Shown one piece after another: positions 47,198-61,736 of a DNA stretch of 64,000 nucleotides. Position numbers and translations under genes: made by a program. Within the stretch, counting starts at the first letter, position 1. Every line of letters begins with the position of its first letter. The notes below the pieces were generated by a model, which worked only from the letters and a program-made list of their open reading frames with translations, searched no databases and was not told the origin of the DNA. Source of the stretch: Lachnospiraceae bacterium (GTDB taxonomy: Bacteria > Bacillota > Clostridia > Lachnospirales > Lachnospiraceae); contig JAFQLS010000002.1 in NCBI GenBank assembly GCA_017396555.1, positions 32,379 through 96,378 of the forward strand, read 5' to 3'.

Positions 47198-48406
47198 CTA
47201 CGCCTCTTTTTCGGTCAGCAAATCAAGTCTTTCCATCTCTGCAATCGCATCCTCCGCTTTGATATGCGTATATGTATCCAGTGTCACGGAAATATCTCCA
47301 TGTCCCATGATATATTGCAATACCTTTGGATTCATACCAGACTTCGCCATATTGGTACAAAACGTATGTCTGCACACATGCGGCGTAATCTTCGGCAACT
47401 GCACGCGATAAATGCTATTGTATTTTTCAACGGAAAGCTGGAAGTATTTCTCCCAATGCAATGCTACCCTTGGTTTACCGTTCTTGTCTAAAAATAGAAA
47501 TCCTGAATACCCGTCTACAATCGGCTCAATTTTTGGCTTCGGACGATTCTTAATGATTCGTTTGAAAGCATCCACTACATCCGGATTCATCGGAACCTCG
47601 CGAACTCCATTATCTGTCTTGGTTGTCTCACAAATATATTTCATTTCGCTCGTACGTTGGAGCTGATGATTGACTTTGATGACTTTCTTTCTAAAATCAA
47701 TGTCCTTTATCGTCAAACCACAAAACTCACTGATACGAAGCCCTGTCTTGAACAAGATATAAAACGCATCATAATATCTCTTATAATGTGCGTCTTCCGC
47801 AATAAACTGCAGAAACTTTCTCTCCTGTTCTCTTGTGAGTGCATCCCTTTTGACACTATCATTCACAACAACTGTGTGAAGTTCAAACTGAAATGGATTC
47901 TTGACTATCATATCATCATCTGCCGCCATCTGAAATGCCGGGCGAAGAACGCCACGCACCGTACAAATGGTGCTATATCCTCTGCCTTCTTCCTGCATTT
48001 TAATCAGAAAAACCTTTGCATCTGATGTTTTGATACTCGCAATCTTTCTTTGTCCAAAGGGTTCTTTTTCCAAGATGTTTTGCACAAATTTGTAGCCGGT
48101 ACGAGTACTGTGCTTTACTCCGGTCTTGGTCATTAGATACTTTTCAACTAATTCGCAAACCGTAATATCTTCACAACAGAGTTCCAATCTCAGTTGTTTC
48201 TCGACTTCTTTGATTTTCTCTCTCAAAGATTTCTCCTTACGCTTTCCTGCCGGAGTTGGATCCGAAGCAGTCAATCGCCAACTGTATACTGATTTTCTCT
48301 GTCCAAACGGTGTAGTGTAACGATACACATAACGTCCATCATCTTGTTGCCACTCGCCTGTCTGAAGCACTCTTCCTTTATTGTCACGTCTCTTTGTATT
48401 ACTCAT
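47198..48406 (-). CDS. Tyrosine recombinase, Tn916 integrase type
   Basis: 402 aa from ATG 48406, behind AAAGGAG. The N-terminal RRDNKGRVLQTGEWQQDDGRYVYRY matches the arm-binding domain of Tn916 Int. A SAM-like core-binding domain (~75-165) precedes the catalytic domain. Catalytic residues: Arg in KTGLRISEFCGLT (~222), HVCRH (~343), GHGD (~366) and Tyr in LDTYTH (~377), all intact. It would integrate and excise the element together with the adjacent Xis. Confidence 0.93.
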   Translation of the reverse strand: MSNTKRRDNKGRVLQTGEWQQDDGRYVYRYTTPFGQRKSVYSWRLTASDPTPAGKRKEKSLREKIKEVEKQLRLELCCEDITVCELVEKYLMTKTGVKHSTRTGYKFVQNILEKEPFGQRKIASIKTSDAKVFLIKMQEEGRGYSTICTVRGVLRPAFQMAADDDMIVKNPFQFELHTVVVNDSVKRDALTREQERKFLQFIAEDAHYKRYYDAFYILFKTGLRISEFCGLTIKDIDFRKKVIKVNHQLQRTSEMKYICETTKTDNGVREVPMNPDVVDAFKRIIKNRPKPKIEPIVDGYSGFLFLDKNGKPRVALHWEKYFQLSVEKYNSIYRVQLPKITPHVCRHTFCTNMAKSGMNPKVLQYIMGHGDISVTLDTYTHIKAEDAIAEMERLDLLTEKEA

Positions 48407-48473
48407 AATCATTCTCCTTTCAAAGAGCTGTGACATGGCTTAGTGTTAATATATCACAACCCGTTCATTTTTT

Positions 48474-48680
48474 CTATATTGCTTCTAATGTATCTACGAA
48501 TTTTTCAAATTTTTCTCGCTTAATTTGAACACGATTCCCATTCCAAAGAAGGTAATCTGCGTTCTTATTCTCATTGATGTGTCTACGCAATTTATGTTCT
48601 CCGATACGAAAATAAGCCGCTGCTTCCTCCACTGTTAAAGTGTACTTCTCCCACAAAGGAACATTCTGACTATGCTTCAT
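48474..48680 (-). CDS. Excisionase, Tn916 Xis type
   Basis: 68 aa. [29 protein letters not shown] is the winged-helix start of Tn916-type Xis proteins. It overlaps the stop of the upstream gene by 11 nt and precedes the integrase by 68 nt, the standard order. It would direct excision. Confidence 0.9.
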
Positions 48681-49215
48681 CTACATCCACTCCCCTTTCT
48701 TTTAATCTCCGTCGTAAGTCTATTACCAACCCTAACGTTTCATCCATCTTTTCAAAGTATCTACATGATCCGATTTCATCCCCTTTGGCTTCTGCCAAGT
48801 CCGATTTCGCATCATAATAGCTGGCCTTTACATCCAGATAACGATAACGAAGTAAATCATATTCCAGCTGAAGAGCTGCATATTTTTTCTTCATCTCAAT
48901 CAATCCATCCCTCGCTTCTGTCTCTTCTTTAGGCGGATATGGATAAGGCTTTAACCTGATAGGATAGATGGAACGCAAATCCTCTATGACTGCCTTAAAT
49001 TTTTCCTCATCCAAATAAAACTTCCAGCCAAAGCTTTTGACAATTCCATCCTCATCCTCCAAAGCCCGTGTCATCTGATATCTGGCTGTTGCCTCCGGCA
49101 ATCCCAACTCCTGCATCAAATACTCCTTGATTTCCTCTCTCTCCTTGCCCTCACTGCCAAGGAACTCACAAATGTGTCTGTACTTACAAAAATGCTCTAA
49201 CCACTGTTTCTGCAT
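48670..49215 (-). CDS. Hypothetical protein of the integration module
   Basis: 181 aa from ATG 49215, eight nt after AAGGAGG. Residues ~1-75 look like a helical DNA-binding region ([32 protein letters not shown]), followed by a coiled coil (~105-165). No family is recognised. It is the first gene of the unit with xis and int and may be a regulator of excision; this is inference. Confidence 0.6.
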
Positions 49216-49238
49216 TTTCTTTTCCTCCTTCTGTTTAG

Positions 49239-49340
49239 TACTTAGGGTCAAAAAAAGCTGATTGCAAAAAACGCGATAATTTTCTTCAACTTTTTTTCTC
49301 CTGTCAGTTATTACTTGGAGTCAAAAAAAGCTGATGACAA
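49239..49340 (-). promoter_or_regulatory. Tandem duplicated promoter for the int module
   Basis: Two near-identical 29-bp units at 49239-49267 and 49312-49340 share TCAGCTTTTTTTGAC. Read on the minus strand, each gives -35 TTGCAA or TTGTCA, a 17-nt spacer and -10 TAAGTA or CAAGTA. The proximal unit sits 24 nt before the ATG. Confidence 0.5.
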
Positions 49341-49737
49341 AAAAATCCGGCAAAAAAGAAGAAAGTCACCAACATTTCTGCTGATGACTCTAAACTTCAA
49401 CAATATTTACTTTTATCTTCTCATAAGTGGCATTTTCTCAAATTCCGAAAATCTCGGACAAATAGTCTCAAAAAATGAGACTGACTTGTCCAGCATCTCT
49501 AAAAAGAATCCAACGTCGCCGGACATTTTCCAGTGTCTCCGGACGGAGAAACCCAGCAAAATCAATGGTTTCAGAGGCTCTGTCTAAAATTCCAAAACTG
49601 TAGAATCTGTCTACGTAATTGGACTGCGAAAGAAACAGGATACGCATAAAGTTGTATACTTTACGCCAGCAACTTCACGCCCAGGGCGTTCATAGTAGGG
49701 TTCCCCTACAACCCGAATATTGGTCAACAAAGGAAAA
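49341..49737. other. Non-coding stretch with small inverted repeats
   Basis: No convincing gene. GTCTC-AAAAAAT-GAGAC (~49467-49483) and a GC-rich fold around CCGGACATTTTCCAGTGTCTCCGG (~49519-49542) are visible. It separates the int module from the end of the defence operon. Confidence 0.4.
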
Positions 49738-49826
49738 GCCACTTTTGGTCACAATGACCAAAAGTGGCTTAAAATGTTGGCTTGAAATGCTGGTTTGGAA
49801 CTTTTGGTCATCATGACCAAAAGTTC
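49738..49826. repeat. Two near-identical palindromes after the defence operon
   Basis: GCCACTTTTGGTCA-CAA-TGACCAAAAGTGGC (49738-49768) and GAACTTTTGGTCA-TCA-TGACCAAAAGTTC (49798-49826) are both perfect and share the core ACTTTTGGTCA. No T-run follows on the minus strand, so protein or RNA-structure roles fit as well as termination. Confidence 0.6.
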
Positions 49827-49843
49827 TTTAAAATATTTACATT

Positions 49844-50269
49844 CTAAACTTCTAAATATCCCTTTGCTTTTGCTTCTTCATACAATGCATTCGCTTTATT
49901 CAGCATTAAAAGCGAATAAACTTCTGCACTTTTATCTGCCATTTCACTTAGAATCACCGTAAAACCCTTGTCCGCCATTCCTTCTGCCTTCTTTAACACC
50001 AGAGATCTTTCTGTAATATCTTCTAATTGCTCTAACTCTGGAGCAAGTAGCGCATAAATCATTGCCTTATCTGCTTCATTTAAATCTCTATCATTGAAAA
50101 AACCATCTTTAGCATTTTCAATAACTCCACCATTATAACAATCCATGCCCATGGCTAATGCAAACATAAAAACATCTTTCTGATTATCAAACGCAAGGTA
50201 ACCAGCATCTTTTATTCCACGAATTTCTTTTTGTCTAGTTTTATCAATATAAATTCTATCTTGATCCAT
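49844..50269 (-). CDS. 141-aa protein, last gene of the candidate defence operon
   Basis: The ATG shares a base with the stop of the DndD-like gene (TAATG), so the two are translationally coupled. Mostly helical, acidic, no signal peptide or membrane segment, and no motif I recognise. Coupling suggests a small partner of the ATPase, in the place DndE holds after DndD, but I see no DndE similarity. Confidence 0.65.
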   Translation of the reverse strand: MDQDRIYIDKTRQKEIRGIKDAGYLAFDNQKDVFMFALAMGMDCYNGGVIENAKDGFFNDRDLNEADKAMIYALLAPELEQLEDITERSLVLKKAEGMADKGFTVILSEMADKSAEVYSLLMLNKANALYEEAKAKGYLEV

Positions 50270-52236
50270 TATAAGTCACCTGCCTTTACAAAATCTTCAT
50301 CAACTAACTCAAATCGATATTTTCTATTTGCATATGGTTCAAAAACATCTCTTACATTAATTGAGTATTCATCCTCTGTTACAAATAAAATAATTTGTTT
50401 ATTTTTGCTTACTTCACGCAATACCTTCGCAAATGCAACTCTTAATTCTCCTGAAATACGCGAAATTGGAGTATCAATTACAAGCGGTCCGTCAAATCCA
50501 GACTCTTTATGCAAGGCAAGTGTAAATGCTAACACCAATAACTCTCTTTCTGCAGCAGAGCAGGAACCTAGACATTCAAAACCATCATTATTGATAACAG
50601 ACGTCGAATAGTTATCCGTTAACTCAACTTTGCTAAATTTACGTTTCCACATAAGTTCAAAAAACTTCAGGCTCATTTCTTCACTAATTTTGTCTCGAAT
50701 ATCGCCTTTTATATCAGCAATAATCTCGCTCACTTTATTTCTTGCTTTTTCAGCAAGTTGCGCCTCTTTTCGAACTTTGGCATTTTTCTCATCTTTTTGT
50801 AATGCCTTATTTAACTCCGTTTTCAGTTCTTCCAATCTTCTCATTAATGTAGCCAACTCGATTTCTTCACGAATAACTCTACGATTTGTGTCTTCTATGA
50901 ACTTTTCAAGTTCGCTTCGTTTAGCGTAAAGCGTCTTAATGTGATCTTTATCTGTATATTTGTCAATTGTACTATCGAGTTCACTAATTCTAGCCAACAC
51001 AGTATCAATATCGTGCTTAATACGGTCTTTCGCCTTAAACAGTCTATCTCTTTCCACTTCGTATTTCTTAGCTTCCTGGATTTGCATTTGAAGTGGACCT
51101 AACATACGAGTTAGCAATGTTCCTGTATCTTGTCCTAGTTCATATCTTTTAATCAACTCAGCGACATAAATGGTTGCATCTGTATCTAAAGTACGTCCAC
51201 ACACATGACAAGTATGCTCCGAAAGCATTTCTTCCAGTTCTTTTTTGTCATACTTAGGTGGCAATTCCTTATTACGTTCTTTTTCAACAATTATGTCATA
51301 CATTCTCTTCAATCTAGGTAATGCTGTCAATAAAGTCAAATATTTTTTTAAGAATTGCTTAATGGCATAAGCATTTTCTTCCTGCTCAACTTTTAATTCC
51401 TTACGCAGTTTTTCATCCAATGTATCTCTTTCTAATTCTAATTCTGAAACATCCGGATCATCGCCTAGTTCCATATTAATTCTTTCTAATTCTTTCTTTG
51501 CTCTAGACAAATCCTCTGAATCTTTTTGGACTTTTTCTTTTAATGTTCTCTCCTCTTCTACTTTTGCTTCATACTCAGAATTAAGTTTGGCAGATTGAGA
51601 ATTTCCTCTAGAAGCCTCTCTTCTCAAGTCGTCTGCAACCCTTACCAAATTCTTTTCCATCGTTACCAAAAGATCAATTTGCGAGATCTCTAAAACTGCC
51701 TGTTCAACATTCTTTCCTGCTGTATTTGCTAAGTATGTATCCAATTGTTCACCATCAAAGAAAAAGAATTGTTGGATTTTAAAAGGCAACCTTTTATTTA
51801 CCTCTATCTTAAATTCTTCCTCACCATTCAATACATCAGGTTCTCCAACACTTGGCACTATGACAACTTTTTGACTCTTTACTTTCTCGTAAGCATCTCC
51901 TTCTTCATTTTTACGAAAAGTTATCCATCTAACAAAAGTTACTTCTCCATCCGAATCCTCTAATGTGATGCTAACCATTGTATTTTCTTCTTGGCCTGTT
52001 TCCATTTCTCTTAATGTCTTCAATGTAAATAGCGGTAAGGTTTTGTCCTTTAATCCTTCTGTTACATGCAACTCTCTACCATAAAGACACCAAGTGATTG
52101 CATTTAGAAGTGTAGTTTTACCTATTCCGTTTTCGGCCAGTACATAATTCAAATCATACGTAGATGCATTAGGGAATGTCAAAACAACATCTCTATACTG
52201 TCTATAGTTTTTTATATCTATTTTCTTAATCTTCAT
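50269..52236 (-). CDS. DndD-like SMC/Rad50-type ATPase with zinc hook
   Basis: 655 aa from ATG 52236, after GGAGG. Walker A LAENGIGKTTLLNA (~34-44), two long coiled-coil stretches around a CxxC zinc hook (HTCHVCGRT, ~345), a signature-like GSCSAAERELLVLAFTLAL (~565) and Walker B PLVIDTPISRIS (~587). The IDTP Walker B with following Arg and the coiled-coil layout are those of DndD from phosphorothioation systems. No DndB or DndC is present. It overlaps the 59-aa gene upstream by 11 nt. Confidence 0.85.
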   Translation of the reverse strand: MKIKKIDIKNYRQYRDVVLTFPNASTYDLNYVLAENGIGKTTLLNAITWCLYGRELHVTEGLKDKTLPLFTLKTLREMETGQEENTMVSITLEDSDGEVTFVRWITFRKNEEGDAYEKVKSQKVVIVPSVGEPDVLNGEEEFKIEVNKRLPFKIQQFFFFDGEQLDTYLANTAGKNVEQAVLEISQIDLLVTMEKNLVRVADDLRREASRGNSQSAKLNSEYEAKVEEERTLKEKVQKDSEDLSRAKKELERINMELGDDPDVSELELERDTLDEKLRKELKVEQEENAYAIKQFLKKYLTLLTALPRLKRMYDIIVEKERNKELPPKYDKKELEEMLSEHTCHVCGRTLDTDATIYVAELIKRYELGQDTGTLLTRMLGPLQMQIQEAKKYEVERDRLFKAKDRIKHDIDTVLARISELDSTIDKYTDKDHIKTLYAKRSELEKFIEDTNRRVIREEIELATLMRRLEELKTELNKALQKDEKNAKVRKEAQLAEKARNKVSEIIADIKGDIRDKISEEMSLKFFELMWKRKFSKVELTDNYSTSVINNDGFECLGSCSAAERELLVLAFTLALHKESGFDGPLVIDTPISRISGELRVAFAKVLREVSKNKQIILFVTEDEYSINVRDVFEPYANRKYRFELVDEDFVKAGDL

Positions 52237-52405
52237 GTTGTCCCTCCATTTCTTTCGCATATTTCTCGATTATTTTTGTATATTCCTCTTTATACCACTG
52301 CCGCCCTGTAAGGTTAAAATCCAATAAATCCATCAATAATCCCTGCATCTCTTTGTCATCTGCACAACTTTCTTTGATTGCTTTTCCAATTCTACTCGTA
52401 CTCAT
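52226..52405 (-). CDS. 59-aa small protein
   Basis: ATG 52405, with AGGAGG six nt upstream and ten nt after the helicase stop; stop at 52226 overlaps the DndD-like ATG by 11 nt. The protein (MSTSRIGKAIKESCADDKEM...) is helical, with a GRQWYKEEYTKIIEKYAKEME C-terminal part. No family known. Start signal and coupling make it a real gene; it would be missed by a 60-codon cut-off. Confidence 0.8.
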   Translation of the reverse strand: MSTSRIGKAIKESCADDKEMQGLLMDLLDFNLTGRQWYKEEYTKIIEKYAKEMEGQHED

Positions 52406-52414
52406 TTTATCCTC

Positions 52415-54544
52415 CTATGGTAATCTGGAATATACTTCATCAATAATGTCTAAACGATTCAATGCATTCTCCGATATTTCACTAATTCGTACCATTTCTT
52501 TCTCGAATATCTTTCGCTCATATTTCTTTAACTCACCTTCCAACTGATCAAATGACGGTTCGACAATCACATCATATAAAACTGCTTTTTCCTTTCCCTC
52601 ACTACGTCTTATAATACGCCCTATCCTCTGAACATATTCTCTCGGATTAGTAGAACTAGCAAGGATAATCGCCCTTTTAGCAGACGGAATATCTATTCCT
52701 TCATCTAAACATTTAATTGCAATTAAGGTTTTACAATCTCCATTTACAAACATCTCTATGATATGCTGCCTTTCAGACAAATTTCCATATTGCTTTAATG
52801 GAGTATTGCCTTGGTCCTTTGTGATTCTTTTCGCAAAAACACCTCGACTTTTTAAAATGCTCTCAACTTCATCTATTTGGTTCGGAGAAGTAAAAATAAT
52901 TGTATCACTTAAGTCATTTCCTATTTCATCAAGTATTCTTTCGAATTCAACAAGCTTATTTCTTGCACTCTTATGAAGGTCCGCTCGCATAAACATTAAG
53001 TTCTCAATTTTTTCAGCCATATCACTGTCGTTTTTCGCTTTACTCAAGCCTCTGATAATACTTTCTGTCAACTTTTTATACTCAACTAATTCATCAGTCT
53101 CTAACGAAATGAATCTTGGAATGTATTCATATGGTGTCAAATACGTTTTTCCCGTAATTGGATTCTTCTTGTGCAACGCTTCCGCTATAGTAAAACAATA
53201 TCTATCACTTCCGAAATAGTCTGTAATAACACGCGTTCCATATTCATCAAACCAACGATCAGGTGTAGCGCTCAATCCCAATCTATAGTCATACTCTTCT
53301 AAAAAACCTCTCGCTCTACGTGCCGAACCTAATCCATGAACCTCATCCCCTATGAGAAAATAGGTTGTATTATTTTTGTATTGCTTAACAATCGTCGTAA
53401 AAGCATCTCTATAGTATGTATCAAATGTAGAATACACAAACAAAGTGTTTTTCCTACCCGCTCGCTCTACACTAACTTCTAGTAACTTGTAAGCCAACTC
53501 TTCTTTCCATCCTTTCGAAGAAGAGTCTGCAATAATATAATTATCCCATTCCAAGCCACTTTTCTTAATATCATCTAACCATTGTCTTGCCAATGTGTCC
53601 TGCGGACAAATTATAAAAACAACTGCTGGGGTTTCACACTCATTAAAAAAATCTACAATACATAACTGTGCTGTTTTTGTTTTCCCCGTTCCTGTTGCCA
53701 TCTCAAAAATAGCCTTATGATGTTCTTTCCACACTTTCAATGCTTCTTCCTGATACACAAACGGAGTAAAACTTAACTTAACAACCTTTTTCTCTTTTAA
53801 TTCCTCTTGTACAATTTGTTCTTCTAGTTTTTCAAAATTCTTTGGTGCTTTCTGAATCAATTTTTCAGATACTGCGACCGGCAAATCAGTAATTTTAACT
53901 TTCGAAACATTTTGGTTCCAATAATTGTTAAATTTATCAATATCAATTTGTGCGGAATCTCTTTTACCTTCATCCCAATAGCGAAAAACTTTAAACTCCT
54001 CAACGTTTCGAACCCATGCACTTGCCGTTTCATTTACCGAGCCACTAAAAGTAATTATGTTTCCATCTTCATCTTCAAGGATTCCTACCTTAATATGAAA
54101 AAGTCCTGATTCTTCAACTTTTTCATAATCCATAATATTTCCTTTATCATCATATACAGTAGCCACTTTTATTGTAAGATAACCATTTGCCATCAACCAG
54201 CCCAAAGCTTCTATTCTTCTTCGTTGTAGCAACGACTCTAAGTTATCCATCTCCAAAAGCATAACCTTTGAGATAATCTCTTGTGGGTCACTAGACGCCT
54301 TTTTCATGATATCAACATCTTCCGGTGATAATCTTGGAGACACCAACAAATCCATATGCCCACCATTCGCAATCAATCCTGCTATCCCCCTAGCTGCAAC
54401 CGATAAACTAGATGACGAAAAAAATCCTGCAATTCGCTTATAATATTTTGTTTCTTTTAAAACCGGAATATAAAAATCATTCAAAATATCATCAAATCCC
54501 GAATCATATCCACTTTTAATTTCTGGCAAATCTTTTAATCCCAA
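52415..54544 (-). CDS. Phospholipase D-like nuclease fused to DEAD/DEAH helicase
   Basis: 709 aa from a TTG start, seven nt after AGAGGG. The N-terminal PLD domain (~1-230) shows one HxK-D-GSxN motif: FHIKVGIL (~149) then GSVNETASAW. The helicase has Walker A ATGTGKTKTA (~285), DEVH in LIGDEVHGLGS (~400), LSATPDRW, KCLDEGIDIPS and RIGRIIR. PLD-helicase fusions occur in restriction-type defence, including some proteins placed with phosphorothioation systems. It begins four nt after the preceding stop. Confidence 0.9.
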   Translation of the reverse strand: MGLKDLPEIKSGYDSGFDDILNDFYIPVLKETKYYKRIAGFFSSSSLSVAARGIAGLIANGGHMDLLVSPRLSPEDVDIMKKASSDPQEIISKVMLLEMDNLESLLQRRRIEALGWLMANGYLTIKVATVYDDKGNIMDYEKVEESGLFHIKVGILEDEDGNIITFSGSVNETASAWVRNVEEFKVFRYWDEGKRDSAQIDIDKFNNYWNQNVSKVKITDLPVAVSEKLIQKAPKNFEKLEEQIVQEELKEKKVVKLSFTPFVYQEEALKVWKEHHKAIFEMATGTGKTKTAQLCIVDFFNECETPAVVFIICPQDTLARQWLDDIKKSGLEWDNYIIADSSSKGWKEELAYKLLEVSVERAGRKNTLFVYSTFDTYYRDAFTTIVKQYKNNTTYFLIGDEVHGLGSARRARGFLEEYDYRLGLSATPDRWFDEYGTRVITDYFGSDRYCFTIAEALHKKNPITGKTYLTPYEYIPRFISLETDELVEYKKLTESIIRGLSKAKNDSDMAEKIENLMFMRADLHKSARNKLVEFERILDEIGNDLSDTIIFTSPNQIDEVESILKSRGVFAKRITKDQGNTPLKQYGNLSERQHIIEMFVNGDCKTLIAIKCLDEGIDIPSAKRAIILASSTNPREYVQRIGRIIRRSEGKEKAVLYDVIVEPSFDQLEGELKKYERKIFEKEMVRISEISENALNRLDIIDEVYSRLP

Positions 54545-54547
54545 TTT

Positions 54548-55138
54548 TTATCCCTCTCTTAACTTTACTACCATATCCCATGTATTTCTTCGTCTTCGCT
54601 CCGCAGTACTTTTCGAAAGATACATACGCATTACTTCTTCTAATGCCTTTGCATCTGGCGTTCCATGTTTAATCGCATACTGAACAATTGGAACTCGACC
54701 GGATAGTTTTACAAAACAATCTTCCTGTTCTGCTTCGCTTCTTTTTTCAAGAGACTTTCCTAGCTCATTTAAATATACACGCTTTCTACTTTCCTGCCTT
54801 ATTTCCACAACACCTAAAATTTCTGCAAGCTTAGCATGATTTTCTCCATATTTTACGTAAGCACGTTCATCACTTCCACTGTCTATATAATGTTGACCCA
54901 CTTCTAAAAAAGAAGGTCCGAAATCACCAGCCATTCGTAAATATTTAATCATGTTTGTTGTCCCATCTACAAAGGAACTGTATTGCGGAATACTGTATGT
55001 AACTATCTCTTTTTGCTCTAGTCCAGAAATTAAGTAACATATATTTTCGTTTGAGCACTCTAACAACGAATCTATCAATTCATCCGCATTATTATATTTA
55101 CCCGTTTCATAATACACACACACTATAGAGTTAACCAT
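54548..55138 (-). CDS. Winged-helix-like protein of the defence operon
   Basis: 196 aa from ATG 55138, preceded by GGTGAT; an earlier in-frame ATG has no ribosome binding site. The C-terminal STAERRRRNTWDMVVKL segment resembles repeated helical DNA-binding units found next to restriction genes. The middle (KLAEILGVVEIRQESRKRVYLNELGKSL) looks like a winged helix. No catalytic motif is seen. Likely a DNA-recognition subunit; that is inference. Confidence 0.65.
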   Translation of the reverse strand: MVNSIVCVYYETGKYNNADELIDSLLECSNENICYLISGLEQKEIVTYSIPQYSSFVDGTTNMIKYLRMAGDFGPSFLEVGQHYIDSGSDERAYVKYGENHAKLAEILGVVEIRQESRKRVYLNELGKSLEKRSEAEQEDCFVKLSGRVPIVQYAIKHGTPDAKALEEVMRMYLSKSTAERRRRNTWDMVVKLREG

Positions 55139-55142
55139 TTTA

Positions 55143-56339
55143 TCACCACTTTCCATCGAATTCATCAAATCTTAAATCAAAGTACTTCTTTGCAATTTCT
55201 GGAAATTCTTGTTCAAAATCAAGCAGTGCCTTCATTGAAGAACAAACATGCCCTTCCGTTTTTACCAATGCCTGATTAGCTTCACAATATTGCCTGAAAC
55301 TCTTTTTCTTAAAGAAACTTGGTTGATTACACCAACGAGCCATAGCCACATACATACCACGATATTTTGACTCTTTCCATGGAGTCTCATTTTTATTACG
55401 ATATCTCATAATATATGGCAAGCATTGATATCTCATCAATAATTCAACTCTCTTCCACATATTTTCAATATCTTCCGCATCAGTACTTTTAAATCCTACC
55501 AATACGTAAAATTTGATGTTCGTTACTTTTGAATACTTTCTAATTAGTTTCAATTTGCGATGTATCAAATCATAATCTTCGATATTATCAAAAGCAAATG
55601 TATAATCCCCGTCATATGATGCATTAAATAGCATCTCACACTTTTCTTCTGTTAATAACCTTTCATCCATTCCTTGTTTGAACTTAAATGGTTTTTTCAT
55701 AGCTATTAATTTTTCTAAAATTTTCTTCCATGACGGACATCCTAATACATTATCATCTAATAAACATATCTTTTTCCTAGATGGATCATAAAACTCCTCT
55801 AATGGGCTATGACAAAACACATGATCATATTTCTGATTTACGCAGAATGGACATTTACGAAAACATCCTCTCGTAACAAATCCTATACTATAATCGGTAT
55901 ATTCTTTAAACTTAACCATAAAAGAAGTTCTATTAAATTTCTTCCCCGCTTTTTTGCGTTCTTCTTCCGCTCTTTTTACTTCACTTGCAATCCAATCATC
56001 ATATAAATGATAGTCTGGCATATGATGTTCTATTTCAGGGTCAAGGTCTGGTGCTTTTTCAAAGAAGAAACCTGTACCACCTACAAAAATGTTCTCCGGA
56101 AGAGTAACTTCACACGTATCCATATTCACGCCATTGGCAATCCAATCCGGCACCCAAGTATCTGTGAATACTTTAGAAATATATACTCTATCGTACTTAT
56201 CCAAATCTTCATAATCCAATTTTAACTCTACTTCTGCGTCTCTTTCTTTCCAATAGGCAGACAATTTCTCACATACTAGGTTTGGAAAGCGATGTTTTGT
56301 TCTTCCCAAAAGATCTGCATCAATAATTGCTATTTTCAC
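55143..56339 (-). CDS. Radical SAM protein
   Basis: 398 aa from a GTG start six nt after GAGGAAACGA; an ATG overlapping it is out of frame. The N-terminal ~130 residues resemble a cobalamin-binding-like Rossmann region (MKIAIIDADLLGR, YDRVYISKVFTDTW, IFVGGTGFFF). The radical SAM cluster motif is RGCFRKCPFC (C-x3-C-x2-C, ~159-166), followed by LLDDNVLG and KFKQGMDERLLT. Relatives occur in Clostridial phages and mobile elements with unknown substrates. It sits second in the operon, so it may modify DNA or a partner protein; that is a hypothesis. Confidence 0.88.
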   Translation of the reverse strand: MKIAIIDADLLGRTKHRFPNLVCEKLSAYWKERDAEVELKLDYEDLDKYDRVYISKVFTDTWVPDWIANGVNMDTCEVTLPENIFVGGTGFFFEKAPDLDPEIEHHMPDYHLYDDWIASEVKRAEEERKKAGKKFNRTSFMVKFKEYTDYSIGFVTRGCFRKCPFCVNQKYDHVFCHSPLEEFYDPSRKKICLLDDNVLGCPSWKKILEKLIAMKKPFKFKQGMDERLLTEEKCEMLFNASYDGDYTFAFDNIEDYDLIHRKLKLIRKYSKVTNIKFYVLVGFKSTDAEDIENMWKRVELLMRYQCLPYIMRYRNKNETPWKESKYRGMYVAMARWCNQPSFFKKKSFRQYCEANQALVKTEGHVCSSMKALLDFEQEFPEIAKKYFDLRFDEFDGKW

Positions 56340-56360
56340 ATTCGTTTCCTCAGTTCTTTA

Positions 56361-56570
56361 TTATTGTTCATCCGGAGTGATTTCTACAATATCTCCTATT
56401 TCACAGTGTAATGCTGTACATATCTTTACAAGTACATCCATTGTTACATTCTCATTTCTACCCATTTTTGCGATAGAAGTGTTGCTTATCTTTGCCAACT
56501 GTGCAAGATCCTTTTTCTTCATATCTTTATCAATTAGCAACTTCCACAATTTCTTGTAATTTACTGCCAT
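56361..56570 (-). CDS. XRE family (YozG-like) transcriptional regulator
   Basis: 69 aa from ATG 56570. A compact helix-turn-helix: MAVNYKKLWKLLIDKDMKKKDLAQLAKISNTSIAKMGRNENVTMDVLVKICTALHC in outline (positions 1-56), ending GDIVEI. It is the first gene of the operon. A dyad spans its promoter spacer, so it probably represses the whole unit. Confidence 0.85.
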   Translation of the reverse strand: MAVNYKKLWKLLIDKDMKKKDLAQLAKISNTSIAKMGRNENVTMDVLVKICTALHCEIGDIVEITPDEQ

Positions 56571-56621
56571 AATAACTTTTCCTCTTTCAATTAGCACAAT
56601 TATTACTTTTGTCTTATGATT

Positions 56622-56684
56622 AGTATAGTTGATCCATCCAGCATGATCAACAAAATTCGCGCAAGTTATTATGCGTTCGCGTAA
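56622..56684 (-). promoter_or_regulatory. Promoter and operator of the candidate defence operon
   Basis: Minus strand -35 TTGATC (56645-56650) and -10 TATACT (56622-56627) are 17 nt apart. The dyad GTTGATC...GATCAAC (56628-56651) covers the spacer and -35. Upstream, TTCGCG(C/T)AA occurs twice in direct orientation, 20 bp apart (56656-56664 and 56676-56684). Confidence 0.6.
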
Positions 56685-56716
56685 ATTGTTGTTTAATATA
56701 AAACAAACTATATGTT

Positions 56717-56830
56717 GACTGCAGGCACCCACAGCTGTGCTTGTAAGGCAAAAAGGAAGGCACTAACCACCGGACTCATTCCAGTAATTAGTGCCTTATT
56801 GGCAAGACAGCCTAGCACAGCAGTCTCCTA
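56717..56830 (-). ncRNA. Strongly folded ~115-nt element; contains ATPase terminator
   Basis: On the minus strand GACTGC and TGTGCT pair with AGCACA and GCAGTC as an outer stem. Inside, AAGGCACTAA-TT-ACTGG / CCGGT-GG-TTAGTGCCTT makes a long hairpin followed by CCTTTTT, which is terminator-like. The outer pairing goes well beyond a simple terminator, so a structured RNA is possible. No reverse transcriptase gene is present, so it is not a retron. Confidence 0.5.
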
Positions 56831-56884
56831 CAGTAAACATATTTATTTGAACTATGTTTTTCCTACGCAATTTATATTTCAGAA

Positions 56885-58816
56885 TCACTCCTCACATGCA
56901 TTCTCTTTCAATAAATATTTATCGTTATCCAACTCATAAAATACATACGGTTTAAATTCCTCCGGATAAGTATCAATACCGGTAGTTAAAATAATTTGAT
57001 AGGGACGTGCATTTTCATTATTGTACTCATCCGCCTTTGCTAATAAAGCAATATTCTTTATCAAATTGTCTTTATCTATTCCTTCCTTATTAGGTGTATC
57101 AATCAATAAAAACCTTGGAAAATTAATATCATTCCTGATGCTCTCAATTAATAAGGTCAAGAAATACATTAGTCTCTTAGGAACTGCCGCACTACGTTCT
57201 CTATACTGTCCCATGTTAATATGCGGTAAATAGTCCTCTCCTATATAAGCTGAATAGCATTGCGCATCTGCACGCTGCATAAAAATCGAATATACCTCAT
57301 CAAATTCGTTTTTCTTCTTTAGCATATCATCCTTTGCACTATTCAAAAATCCATCCACATTTATTTTCAATTTTTCAACCTGACCTCTTAAGCGTGTAAC
57401 CTCTGCAACAAGAGCATCTCTCTTTTTCGACAACTCCTCCGCTTGCTGTAATTCTAATATTCTAGCATTTAATTCTCTTTCTCTCTCATCAAGTTTCCTT
57501 ATATATGCTGAATTATAATTAGAGGTAACAGTTTTCGACAATTCTACAATGTAAAGTCGTATCCTTTCAATCTCATTTGTAAAATTCTCAATATTTGAAA
57601 GCACTGTTTTCATTCTTTCATTTTTTCTATCCAGCAACTCCTTCATTGACTGAATGGCTTTCTTTCTTACTTTTAATATATCTAAATATTCCTCATCCGT
57701 ATAGAAAAACTTTTCATATTGCTCTTCTGTAACATCACTACCGCATATACATTTCCCTGCTTTACGTTCAACTTCTCTCAAACAATATGGGCATGTATTC
57801 GGATTGAATAATTTCAATGTTTTATTAACTAATCTTATTTTTTCAATTTCCTCCAATTCTTTTTCTGCTTCTTCAATTAAGTATATTATCTTGTCAATAG
57901 ATTGAGCAGTTAAAACTTTTACTCTTTCCCAATGTTCTAACTCACTCTGTTGTGAAAGAAGTACTGCCTTCTGCTGATTGATTAATTGCAAAACTTCGTC
58001 TGCATTAGACTCTTTACACATCGCCACATTGCGTTCAAGCTGTACCCTTTCGACCATCTCCTGATTTTCTGATATCATTGCATGAATATGTAATACATTT
58101 TCCAAATCATAATCCAATACTTCTCCTAAAAAATCATCATAGCTATCCATAATAGCCTGTGCCTTTTCTAGTTCTTTTAGTTTTAACTTGTACTGACCTA
58201 ATGTGTAATAGTACTCATTATAATTCTTTCCAAGTAACACTTCGAATATAGCTTTTCTAATCTCTAAGGAATCCGATAAAAAATTAGAATTATCTGCTTC
58301 TTTATATATCTTATCAACCTCTGTTGCTTGGTCATGATATATCAAACGTAACAAATCAGTAAAATTTAGTTTAAAATTTTTTGTGCCTTGTACGATATCA
58401 AAAACCTCAATGCTTAATTTACTTAATATCCAATCCGAAAAAATAATAGCGTCTTCATCACCTTGGTTTCTATATACATAAGTTTGAAGCACTTCCTCAT
58501 CTTCGCCAACCACAAAAATCCTGTTGTCTCCTATATATCTAGTCAATTCATATTTACTATCATTGATTTCTATTAGTAATTCTACATAATTATTTTTATC
58601 ACTGCATACCTCGAAGTGCTTGTTCCTCTCACCGTCATCACTTTTATTAAAGGCCTTTACTCTTCCTCCCAAACCATAATATATCAAATTCATAAATGTG
58701 CTTTTCCCATGCCCATTTATACCTTCCATTATTACTAATCCGTCGTCCAAGTAAGGTGATTCAAAAATATATTTGTCTCCACTATAAACAACTCTCCTGA
58801 CCGCTAATCGTCCCAT
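56885..58816 (-). CDS. Rad50-like ATPase, ABC-three-component-type defence ATPase
   Basis: 643 aa. Walker A EGINGHGKST (~31-40), coiled coils broken by a zinc hook (CPYC ~344 and CICG ~362), Walker B FLLIDTPNKEG (~573) and an ending TTGIDTYPEEF. It overlaps the preceding 172-aa gene by 13 nt. Together with the two genes upstream this fits the ABC-three-component defence systems described from comparative genomics. The ATPase would sense invading DNA and license the effector. Confidence 0.85.
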   Translation of the reverse strand: MGRLAVRRVVYSGDKYIFESPYLDDGLVIMEGINGHGKSTFMNLIYYGLGGRVKAFNKSDDGERNKHFEVCSDKNNYVELLIEINDSKYELTRYIGDNRIFVVGEDEEVLQTYVYRNQGDEDAIIFSDWILSKLSIEVFDIVQGTKNFKLNFTDLLRLIYHDQATEVDKIYKEADNSNFLSDSLEIRKAIFEVLLGKNYNEYYYTLGQYKLKLKELEKAQAIMDSYDDFLGEVLDYDLENVLHIHAMISENQEMVERVQLERNVAMCKESNADEVLQLINQQKAVLLSQQSELEHWERVKVLTAQSIDKIIYLIEEAEKELEEIEKIRLVNKTLKLFNPNTCPYCLREVERKAGKCICGSDVTEEQYEKFFYTDEEYLDILKVRKKAIQSMKELLDRKNERMKTVLSNIENFTNEIERIRLYIVELSKTVTSNYNSAYIRKLDERERELNARILELQQAEELSKKRDALVAEVTRLRGQVEKLKINVDGFLNSAKDDMLKKKNEFDEVYSIFMQRADAQCYSAYIGEDYLPHINMGQYRERSAAVPKRLMYFLTLLIESIRNDINFPRFLLIDTPNKEGIDKDNLIKNIALLAKADEYNNENARPYQIILTTGIDTYPEEFKPYVFYELDNDKYLLKENACEE

Positions 58817-59322
58817 TTTGTCACCTCGTTATATCCAAATATCTTGTCCTGTAATGTACTTAACTTCATACTTCTAATTTTAGGTAACGCCTTTTTTACT
58901 ATCAAAGACCTCCTAATATCTTCATTTAGGATATCTCCTTTTATTAGTCCTTCTATTTCTTTATTTACGACTAATAAAACATCAATATTACCACCCTTTT
59001 TACTTTTCTGTAACTCTACCATCCCCTGCTTTTCCAAGAAAAAAAGTACTCTTTTTACTACGGATATATTTAACTTAGAATCACAAAATAATTTTATTGC
59101 TCTCTCATTGTCAAATATACTATCTGCTTTTTGACTTACTAGTTTTTCGAAAAAAGATATGTTTTCCTGACTTTTTACAAATTCAAATATGATTCCTAAT
59201 TTTCTGTAGTCTTCAAAATTTTTTTTATCACACTCAAGTGCCACTAAAACAGAAAGAAGTTTAATAGTAATAAAATAGTAATCTTCTTCAAGAATAAACA
59301 TCATTCTTTTTTTACTATTCAT
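58804..59322 (-). CDS. ABC-3C-like middle component
   Basis: 172 aa from ATG 59322, after AAGGGGGG; the ATG overlaps the nuclease stop by eight nt. Helical, with a FEDYRKLGIIFEFVKSQENISFFEKLV segment and a winged-helix-like VVKRVLFFLEKQGMVELQKS part, as in middle components of ABC-3C systems. It likely bridges ATPase and nuclease. Confidence 0.65.
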   Translation of the reverse strand: MNSKKRMMFILEEDYYFITIKLLSVLVALECDKKNFEDYRKLGIIFEFVKSQENISFFEKLVSQKADSIFDNERAIKLFCDSKLNISVVKRVLFFLEKQGMVELQKSKKGGNIDVLLVVNKEIEGLIKGDILNEDIRRSLIVKKALPKIRSMKLSTLQDKIFGYNEVTKWDD

Positions 59323-60580
59323 CTGTTTTCCCCCCTTCATCTAACGCCAAGTAGCATTCTTGAAACAGCAAAATAATTGTTTTTCTTATCATATCCTCAT
59401 CTTCAAATGCTACATTATACGTCTTTGCTTTATCTTGAATAACTTTATTTGCTTCCACTGTAAGATTATCCATTAACGCTTCTATTTCTACCTGTGTAAT
59501 TTTTTCACCATGTGTCTTTAAAAACTTATCTATTATTTTTTTACAAGTTTTATATACTCTATAGTTATATGCCTTCACCTGTCTATGATTTTGATGATGT
59601 CTCTGTTCATATGCTCCCTCAACATATTCTTCTTCTAATTCATCTAACAAGTCTTTTTCAAACTCAGCACACACGCTCAGAAATTTTTCATTTAAATTTC
59701 TTACATCATTACATGAAATTTCATCCCATTTTCCATGCATTGGATCAAGTTTTTCTTCTACACGAGCTTCCTGTGCAAATAATAAAAACAGTTTTTCTAC
59801 TTCTGCTACGTGCACAATACTGCGCAAAAAATCTTTTTCAAATTTTCTAGCTTCAATCATATCTAGAATTTTAGCTGTAATTAACCCCACATACTTTCCG
59901 TTGACATCAAATTTAACGCATAATTGTTCCACTAAATTCTCTATATTTTTTCTAACCTCCACTTCGTCAGGTTCTCCAAAATTCCATTCAATTAGATCAA
60001 AGAATTTCTTCCACTTTTCTTCTGTCATAGAGTCCAATATTTCTTGAAATTGCCTTATCTCCTCCGTATCTTTAAGATGCTTTCCATGTTGTTCAATATA
60101 ATATTGTTTAAAACATGGTAACACAAACGGAAATGCTTCACTGTATCTTTTTTCTTTCAGTAACTGAAGCATTGGTTCTTCCGGAAATGTAACCTCTATA
60201 TCTTTGAATATACCTACTTTATTTTCTTTCTTTATATTTGTATTAGTGTAAAAAACAAATTGAATACTTTCAGACATTTCTACTGTTCCTAACCATGCAT
60301 CAAAAAATATTCTTAAAGAATTTTTTATCTCGTGACTATTCATCGAAAAGCCTGTAGAATATGACTTGTTTTGCTCAGCTGTATATTTTACAACTTCTTC
60401 TTGCCAATCTCCTTGCAAAACATCATCAACATGCTCTATCATGCAATATAAAGCTTTTTTTTCTTGTATAACGGCCTCAAGTAATCGTTGAGCCGCACGC
60501 ACCTTTTGTAGTCCCAATCCTTTAATGCTAGCATCTGCATCTGTATTAATTTTGTTTTTCTGAAGTACTTCATTAATCAT
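59315..60580 (-). CDS. Cap4/DUF4297-like nuclease effector (ABC-3C)
   Basis: 421 aa from ATG 60580, five nt after AGGTGA. The N-terminus has the pattern of DUF4297 nucleases: GLGLQKVRAAQRLLEAV, then HVDDV (~49, catalytic Asp) and EQNKSYST (~68, the QxK position), then LRIFFDAWL and QFVFYTNTNI. The rest is a long helical region typical of ABC-3C effector C-termini. It should be a double-stranded DNA nuclease released on infection. The nuclease call rests on motif reading only. Confidence 0.65.
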   Translation of the reverse strand: MINEVLQKNKINTDADASIKGLGLQKVRAAQRLLEAVIQEKKALYCMIEHVDDVLQGDWQEEVVKYTAEQNKSYSTGFSMNSHEIKNSLRIFFDAWLGTVEMSESIQFVFYTNTNIKKENKVGIFKDIEVTFPEEPMLQLLKEKRYSEAFPFVLPCFKQYYIEQHGKHLKDTEEIRQFQEILDSMTEEKWKKFFDLIEWNFGEPDEVEVRKNIENLVEQLCVKFDVNGKYVGLITAKILDMIEARKFEKDFLRSIVHVAEVEKLFLLFAQEARVEEKLDPMHGKWDEISCNDVRNLNEKFLSVCAEFEKDLLDELEEEYVEGAYEQRHHQNHRQVKAYNYRVYKTCKKIIDKFLKTHGEKITQVEIEALMDNLTVEANKVIQDKAKTYNVAFEDEDMIRKTIILLFQECYLALDEGGKTDE

Positions 60581-60627
60581 TTTTTCACCTATATAAACAT
60601 GTAATATAACCGCCAATACACTGTTTC

Positions 60628-61045: not shown

Positions 61046-61736
61046 TTAAACTACAATCATTCTCATCACTTCCAAAATATTCTCATACGAAATGTCACTG
61101 GCATACGCGAACTTCTTCTGATACTTTCTCCACATATCCTTAAGATCATCACTCTCTGAAATTTGTTTCAAAATACCCTCTACATCAGAAATCTGTTCTG
61201 TACTTCCTCGATGTTCTGCTGTAGCTTTCAAAGCTTCCTTATAGATTTCCTTATCGTATTCCTGTGTTGTTCCAAGTATGTAAACATCATAATAATCTCT
61301 TGGTCTTGTGTTAAAAACACCTCTGCGCAGAATTGTCTCGACCTTCTCTGCAATAACCGTCTCTATATTATACCCCCATAACCTAATTCGAATATCTTCA
61401 TCGAAAATACCACCAAACTCATACTTTACTGCGTCCGGGATAATCACATCTCCTGTAGAAACATCAATGAATAATGGAGTAATTATTGTATCATATACTG
61501 CGTCCAATCGAACACAATACCCGCCATAAATATCATCCTTACGAATTGGTTCAATAGACTTTACTGTAAATACAACATCATCTTTCATATCGATTTTACA
61601 GATTGCATCAATTGCTTCTGTTATTTTTTCTTCCGTCAACGGCAGATTACGAAGCGTGGTGTCTAAATCCATCGTAGATCTGGTGTCCAATCCGACAATA
61701 GCCGCTATCTACATTCCACCCTTCACAACAAATTTC
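61046..61736 (-). pseudogene. AbiEii-type nucleotidyltransferase toxin, 5' truncated with a nonsense codon
   Basis: The open part begins MDTRSTMDLDTTLRNLPLTEE, the middle of the AbiEii nucleotidyltransferase domain. Reading the same frame upstream gives YSEKFVVKGGM-stop-IAAIVGLDTRSTMDLD, where a TAG replaces the Leu usual after KGGM (one base from TTG). About 45 N-terminal residues are missing. The DxD site and much of the C-terminal part survive. No AbiEi antitoxin is next to it. It is broken. Confidence 0.8.

Follow-up and report, generated by a model that had tools for sequence, protein, structure and literature searches.

The operon and its PbeABCD core

A 64,000-nucleotide (nt) stretch of contig JAFQLS010000002.1 from a Lachnospiraceae bacterium (assembly GCA_017396555.1), hereafter the window, carries an operon of seven genes that encode, in order, a regulator, a radical S-adenosylmethionine (SAM) enzyme (rSAM), a winged-helix protein, a nuclease-helicase, a protein of 59 amino acids (aa), a DndD-like ATPase and a 141-aa protein (Table 1). 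Judging from family matches and gene order, the last four genes are homologues of the named module PbeABCD and follow the same order. The DNA-marking genes that usually accompany PbeABCD seem, from the gene content of the locus, to be replaced here by the rSAM and its winged-helix partner. As far as searches of the literature show, this pair located upstream of PbeABCD is the new part of the system.

The original prediction knew of no named system with this gene set. As four of the seven genes correspond to PbeABCD, the set is not wholly unnamed and the proposal of a wholly new system was rejected; the family matches of PbeA and PbeC therefore mean that the restriction half of the finding already has a name. 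PbeA displays the motifs HxK...GSxN (150-171), GTGKT (285), DEVH (400), SAT (425) and QRIGRIIR (639), and the match of PbeC to its PADLOC model spans 5-620 (618 model positions). PbeA scores 345 bits against NCBIfam TIGR04095 (Dnd-associated restriction enzyme), under the cut-off of 600, and PbeC scores 131 bits against the PADLOC DndD model and 134 bits against TIGR03185 (DndD), under the cut-off of 245.85, as expected since these are sister families. The ATPase was rejected as DndD proper, its DndD score being under the cut-off and the PbeC model fitting better. Its hook is C-H-V-C, a CxxC motif with conserved C346 and C349.

The 59-aa and 141-aa proteins match no family of Pfam, PADLOC or NCBIfam and have the position and size of PbeB and PbeD, which measure 66 and 152 aa in the described system (PMC6459918). 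The former is weakly similar to the protein found at the same position in another locus (L062, E 1e-4) and the latter to the PbeD-position protein of L063 (E 0.006). Among the 26 members of the PbeD set, a single one matches a ribbon-helix-helix repressor (Mnt, E 0.0014); comparison of this set with DndE from Dnd loci, a protein with two such domains, using hhalign gave no sequence signal (probability 0.2%, E 0.25).

All seven open reading frames proposed originally are real and free of internal stops. The genes are tightly packed, with gaps of 21 nt (XRE-rSAM), 3 nt (winged helix-helicase) and 9 nt (helicase-59 aa) and overlaps of 11 nt (59 aa-ATPase) and 1 nt (ATPase-141 aa). The range of 1-11 nt first given for the overlaps thus stands except between the rSAM and winged-helix genes, which overlap by 14 or 26 nt depending on the start. 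The pbeC gene has a GGAGG just 5' of its ATG and an alternative longer start at 52260. A single regulated promoter had also been postulated, but the region 49000-57500 contains 30 promoter-like matches vs 30.7 expected from shuffles, which lends it no support. The stem-loop listed in Table 1 stands between the operon and the upstream gene, the end of the preceding Lamassu-like operon. Downstream of PbeD (49736-49837) lie two similar palindromes with 25-nt arms, mutually 92% complementary, one of them terminator-like.

Table 1. Genes and other features of the locus, with comparable proteins of other loci (window positions unless a locus is named)
Feature	Position	Strand	Remarks
XRE/Cro-type helix-turn-helix regulator, 69 aa	56361-56570	-	ATG; first gene of the operon; Pfam HTH_26, 71 bits
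Radical SAM enzyme (rSAM), 398 aa	55143-56339	-	GTG; PHROG 9298 'radical SAM domain protein', 174 bits
Winged-helix protein, 206 aa	54548-55168	-	TTG; alternative ATG at 55156
PbeA, HKD (PLD) nuclease domain + SF2 helicase, 709 aa	52415-54544	-	TTG; PADLOC PbeA, 691 bits
PbeB-position small protein, 59 aa	52226-52405	-	ATG; assigned by position and size
PbeC, DndD-like ABC ATPase (DndD-sister), 658 aa	50269-52236	-	ATG; PADLOC PbeC, 315 bits
PbeD-position protein (DndE position), 141 aa	49844-50269	-	ATG; assigned by position and size
Terminator-like stem-loop upstream of the operon	56757-56797	-	18 pairs, loop of 5, T-rich tail; consensus match only
Other Pbe lineages: proteins encoded immediately 5' of PbeA, with alpha-CTD-like or sigma70 region 4 domains	L129 6031-9993; L066 4945-8949; L146 7159-10005

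The radical SAM enzyme and its winged-helix partner

The rSAM combines an N-terminal Rossmann-like domain with a radical SAM barrel, predicted from the fold, and carries a single C-x3-C-x2-C site. This site is intact, as originally proposed (C159, C163, C166), and its cysteines are present in all 41 aligned relatives. No Pfam family matches the enzyme at E <= 0.1. Its AlphaFold model (predicted local distance difference test score 94.5) matches over the full length the folds of MgmA, AprD4 and MiaB, which are B12-domain or methylthiotransferase-type (MTTase-type) enzymes. Some cobalamin-dependent radical SAM methylases lack the cobalamin motif DxHxxG, and methylthiotransferases (MiaB/RimO) hold a second cluster by three conserved N-terminal cysteines. 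The rSAM differs from MgmA, AprD4, MiaB and RimO (10-16% identity) in lacking both DxHxxG and a conserved extra N-terminal cysteine set. Two types of rSAM occur in Pbe loci, type 1 and a distant type 2, and DxHxxG was found in 0/41 type-1 and 0/11 type-2 enzymes; the rSAM alignment shows no conserved N-terminal cysteine triplet besides the SAM site. An assignment as methylthiotransferase or cobalamin methylase is therefore unsupported.

The two types are related to each other (hhalign, 99.9%, E 9e-32) and both match PHROG 9298, a family of phage radical SAM domain proteins. By sequence, neither the rSAM nor the winged-helix protein matched a solved structure, and type-2 enzymes gave weak matches only. 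A type-2 fragment (L123, 91 aa) was left out of the rSAM alignment (A9) and of the rSAM tree.

The winged-helix protein, which has no Pfam match at any useful score, has a predicted winged helix-turn-helix fold with a MarR-like winged helix, whose wing is preceded by an invariant KYGENH motif. When the 206-aa protein was used to search 398 genomes of the phylum, three had a match, that of the window and two others, in each case in an rSAM-Pbe locus; a profile search gave the same three, and no plasmid match was obtained. On the PbeA tree described below, the winged helix occurs in 19 of the 20 rows of the type-1 clade (exception, L078); that of L094, missed by the ORF caller, was recovered by a six-frame search. 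The rSAM and the winged helix make up a single chain in 8 of 18 type-1 loci and in one phage contig.

Partners of PbeA and copies of the rSAM in phages

The conserved co-occurrence on which the original prediction depended was found: the rSAM, the winged helix and PbeABCD recur together in two other genomes (G515 and G427). One keeps the same gene order; in the other, the rSAM gene lies behind PbeD in convergent orientation. Judging from this recurrence in distant genomes, the gene set is more than a chance assembly. Of the six PbeA matches in 290 genomes of the order, the five others are about 30% identical and lie beside Dnd-type genes (assessed by eye).

Scans of the genome collection with single proteins (PbeA, winged helix) were empty since the chosen patterns are not conserved, and alignment scans worked. 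The PbeA alignment scan provided 235 relatives or more, and the 80 best ones, chosen by similarity to rSAM-type PbeA, were examined (L114 and L062, the same Mitsuokella locus, counted once). These comprise 18 loci with a type-1 rSAM, 12 with a type-2 rSAM, 23 with dndC or dndD, 16 with a methyltransferase-like gene only and 11 devoid of any detectable modification gene. The type-1 rSAM gene precedes PbeA in the same orientation in 17/18 loci, and the type-2 gene is no more than 280 nt away from the PbeD stop in 9/12. In the fetched stretches, dndC or dndD is found in 0/30 rSAM loci vs 23/50 others (Fisher 1.8e-6), and in 0/11 vs 18/30 when only loci with long flanks are considered (p 7.6e-4). 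The absence of DndC from the window locus, already proposed, is upheld: dndC is lacking there and has no match in the own genome (85% complete), where dndB was not searched for; the sole long DndD match in that genome is PbeC itself, under the cut-off. According to a scan for motifs in the middle region of PbeC, the hook varies with the partner, being CxxC in 17/18 type-1 loci and CxC in 23/23 Dnd loci and 11/12 type-2 loci.

On a PbeA tree of 82 rows, the 20 rows with a type-1 rSAM form one clade (Shimodaira-Hasegawa-like approximate likelihood ratio test, 100), whose record titles include Oscillospiraceae, Lachnospiraceae, Mitsuokella, Acidaminobacter, Bacteroides, Prevotella, Verrucomicrobiota and others, with many metagenome bins; cultured hosts are Mitsuokella jalaludinii DSM 13811 (L114) and Bacteroides ndongoniae (L099, with the fused form). 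The tree needs 8 changes for type-2 rSAM, 10 for Dnd and 10 for methyltransferase, and a single clade for type-2 rSAM is rejected (p 7e-97). Therefore, the partners have been swapped repeatedly, while the rSAM became fixed in one clade. In other lineages, proteins of some 950-1330 aa whose domains resemble the RNA polymerase alpha C-terminal domain (alpha-CTD) or sigma70 region 4 are encoded upstream of PbeA (Table 1) and may be one more Pbe partner, and one Methanobrevibacter locus carries two PbeC-PbeD pairs (L106 2364-7706).

Phages and mobile elements often carry members of the rSAM family. Of 59 viral loci, 50 were checked for PbeA, which is missing from 49 of these records, although they may be fragments; L169 and L155 are examples of such solitary phage rSAMs. 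The sole exception (L175/L214) holds a complete system: on this viral contig, a fused rSAM-winged helix gene and PbeABCD lie among phage-type genes (L214 4732-11346). A phage rSAM encoded on a 138-kb contig shares 71% identity with that of the window, and a 364-aa phage rSAM shares 94.2% identity with the rSAM portion of the L175 fused protein. Phage and Pbe-linked rSAMs are intermingled in the rSAM tree, built without viral rSAMs shorter than 300 aa: a single Pbe clade is rejected (approximately unbiased test, p 1e-66), and the starred branches of a careful tree, made also without L210, L211 and all type-2 rows, force at least six changes.

Methyltransferase genes are concentrated near phage rSAMs, 19/161 genes within 1.5 kb vs 4/304 farther out (p 1.8e-6). 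After removal of near-duplicates, 43 of 56 phage rSAM loci were kept for this neighbour count (L175 and rSAMs of 250 aa or less being left out); 18 of them have a methyltransferase gene and six a PP-loop gene (phosphoadenosine phosphosulfate (PAPS) reductase-like). Such PP-loop genes are seen near rSAMs in mobile elements and a phage (L033 10340-11161, L035 7215-8030, L073).

A putative DNA mark, rival explanations and surroundings of the operon

The closest described system is DndCDEA-PbeABCD of Haloterrigena/Natrinema archaea (Xiong et al. 2019, PMC6459918), which shares with the window PbeA, PbeC, the order A-B-C-D and small genes at the B and D positions. The window locus differs by the lack of dndC, by the presence of XRE, rSAM and winged-helix genes upstream, and by a PbeC hook that is CxxC rather than CxC. 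Since genes for phosphorothioate (PT) modification were sought and not found, the window system is not a PT-based member of this group. The CxC ABC ATPase-DndE systems (Rakesh, Aravind, Krishnan 2024, PMC10853773) share an HKD-SF2 helicase, a rapidly evolving small protein, a DndD-sister ATPase and a DndE-position protein; their CxC hook is not that of the window ATPase. They also occur without a DndD system, and their partners include PT genes, cytosine methylases, MTaX1 and nucleases.

No literature tying a radical SAM enzyme to Pbe was found, and an earlier mention in Krishnan et al. 2020 or in the supplements of PMC10853773 is possible. In the available text of the latter, 'radical SAM' occurs twice, both times in a remark on DndC. 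A radical-SAM mechanism has been proposed for Dnd (PMC12707154), radical SAM enzymes of archaeal islands are described as lying 'outside of any conserved context' (PMC4158269), and PMC12839542 mentions neither Pbe nor CxC nor radical.

The idea that the rSAM stands in for the usual DNA-marking genes receives indirect support from comparative genomics, namely from its position, the lack of overlap with dndC/dndD in the sampled loci, the winged-helix fusions and the phage copies near methyltransferases. In the mechanism proposed here, the winged helix, which is a domain of the rSAM protein in some loci, would bring the rSAM to DNA, where the enzyme, via a 5'-deoxyadenosyl radical, would alter host DNA at a C-H position, in either a base or a sugar. 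The PbeC ABC ATPase with PbeD would scan DNA, PbeA would act as an ATP-driven HKD nuclease-helicase and PbeB as a small accessory protein, so that PbeABCD would spare marked DNA and block or cut unmarked DNA. Phages that carry the rSAM alone would mark their own genomes. This logic of restriction and self-protection is taken over from Xiong et al., who report that virus with PT modification is spared by PbeABCD, that each of the four pbe genes counts and that protection is lost when dndCDEA is deleted (PMC6459918); according to PMC12707154, it is still obscure what the Pbe restriction event consists of. The chances are slightly better than even that the rSAM and winged helix mark host DNA, that PbeABCD restricts unmarked DNA and that phages borrow the rSAM. 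The more precise proposal, in which the rSAM and its winged-helix guide install a hitherto unknown carbon-centred self mark that PbeABCD reads and that phages use to escape, is tentative and falls a little short of an even chance.

Several points weigh against this DNA-marking scheme. Homology, gene order, recurrence, fusion, the lack of neighbouring dndC/dndD in the sampled rSAM loci and the phage copies are observed and the folds are predicted, but DNA substrate, C-H chemistry, self-protection and restriction are all inferred, and the reaction of the rSAM is unreadable from its nearest folds because it lacks both DxHxxG and conserved extra N-terminal cysteines. The 18/80 loci with a type-1 rSAM give no prevalence, because the 80 were chosen by similarity to rSAM-type PbeA. 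When phylogeny is controlled, the mutual exclusion of rSAM and Dnd is not significant (8 independent pairs, median p 0.25), the pairs being too few, and 1 of 29 rSAM-Pbe genomes (L088 left out) has a dndC over the cut-off somewhere in the genome. Furthermore, a methyltransferase-like gene is also present in at least 3/12 type-2 loci (L076, L088, L079) and in 1/18 type-1 loci (L082), the count of such genes in loci being a lower bound because that of L079 had been missed. Pbe may not always need a modification gene, since 11/80 loci, some of them cut by a contig end, show none. Finally, the clustering of phage rSAM and methyltransferase genes is as expected for a DNA-marking rSAM with which phages protect themselves, but it may reflect a general phage accessory region.

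Four other roles of the rSAM were weighed. It could serve as a maturase or switch by modifying a protein or peptide of the system, for instance PbeB or PbeA. This is unlikely: Pbe loci that lack an rSAM also have a PbeB-position gene (a small coding sequence beside PbeA), the phages whose records lack PbeA would hardly offer such a substrate, and the fusion with the winged helix would be left unexplained. Radical SAM enzymes that make antiviral molecules, the viperins, exist in defence, and the rSAM might likewise be an effector producing an antiviral nucleotide or small molecule alongside PbeABCD. This role is very unlikely, since the close phage copies would be odd for an antiviral effector and the top full-length fold matches are of B12-domain/MTTase type; viperin is not among the 50 fold matches listed, which by itself does not decide against it.

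The abundance of the family in phages and mobile elements and the Tn916-type integrase of the island would suit a phage-derived passenger that sits beside PbeABCD with no role in it. This is, however, equally improbable given that the rSAM is present throughout one PbeA clade (20 rows), upstream on the same strand in nearly all loci, and that the winged helix is specific to these loci and often fused to the rSAM. Still less probable is a modification-dependent, type IV-like system, in which the rSAM would mark invading DNA and PbeABCD attack it: the anatomy is compatible with it and the winged helix could recognize foreign or replicating DNA, but phages would then carry a gene flagging their own DNA, and the mark protects in DndCDEA-PbeABCD (PMC6459918).

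If marking by the rSAM is confirmed, PbeABCD would be a restriction core that has acquired three or more marking chemistries of unrelated kinds, based on sulfur (Dnd), methyl groups (methyltransferases) and radical SAM enzymes. This would be a way of telling own from foreign DNA not known before, with, to our knowledge, the first radical SAM enzyme to do the marking for a restriction system, and it could lead to a DNA modification that is new in bacteria and phages. In PMC6459918, 320 of 553 PbeAC are reported without dndCD nearby and 165 without any modification gene, and the question is raised whether they are inactive or use other modifications; the rSAM partner offers an answer for part of the PbeAC devoid of dndCD.

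Directly upstream of the operon (56885-60616) lies a three-gene operon encoding a Lamassu-like ATPase (LmuB, 174 bits) and an LmuA-like protein (57 bits). On the other side, at 47198-48680, genes for a Tn916-type integrase and excisionase are located beside a low-molecular-weight phosphatase gene, likely at the end of the island. These surroundings look like a defence island. Of the genome search and island check invited by the original prediction, the recurrence of the gene set is thus borne out, and the island setting fits the prediction, proving nothing by itself. An AbiEii-type nucleotidyltransferase (104 bits) is encoded at 61046-61690.

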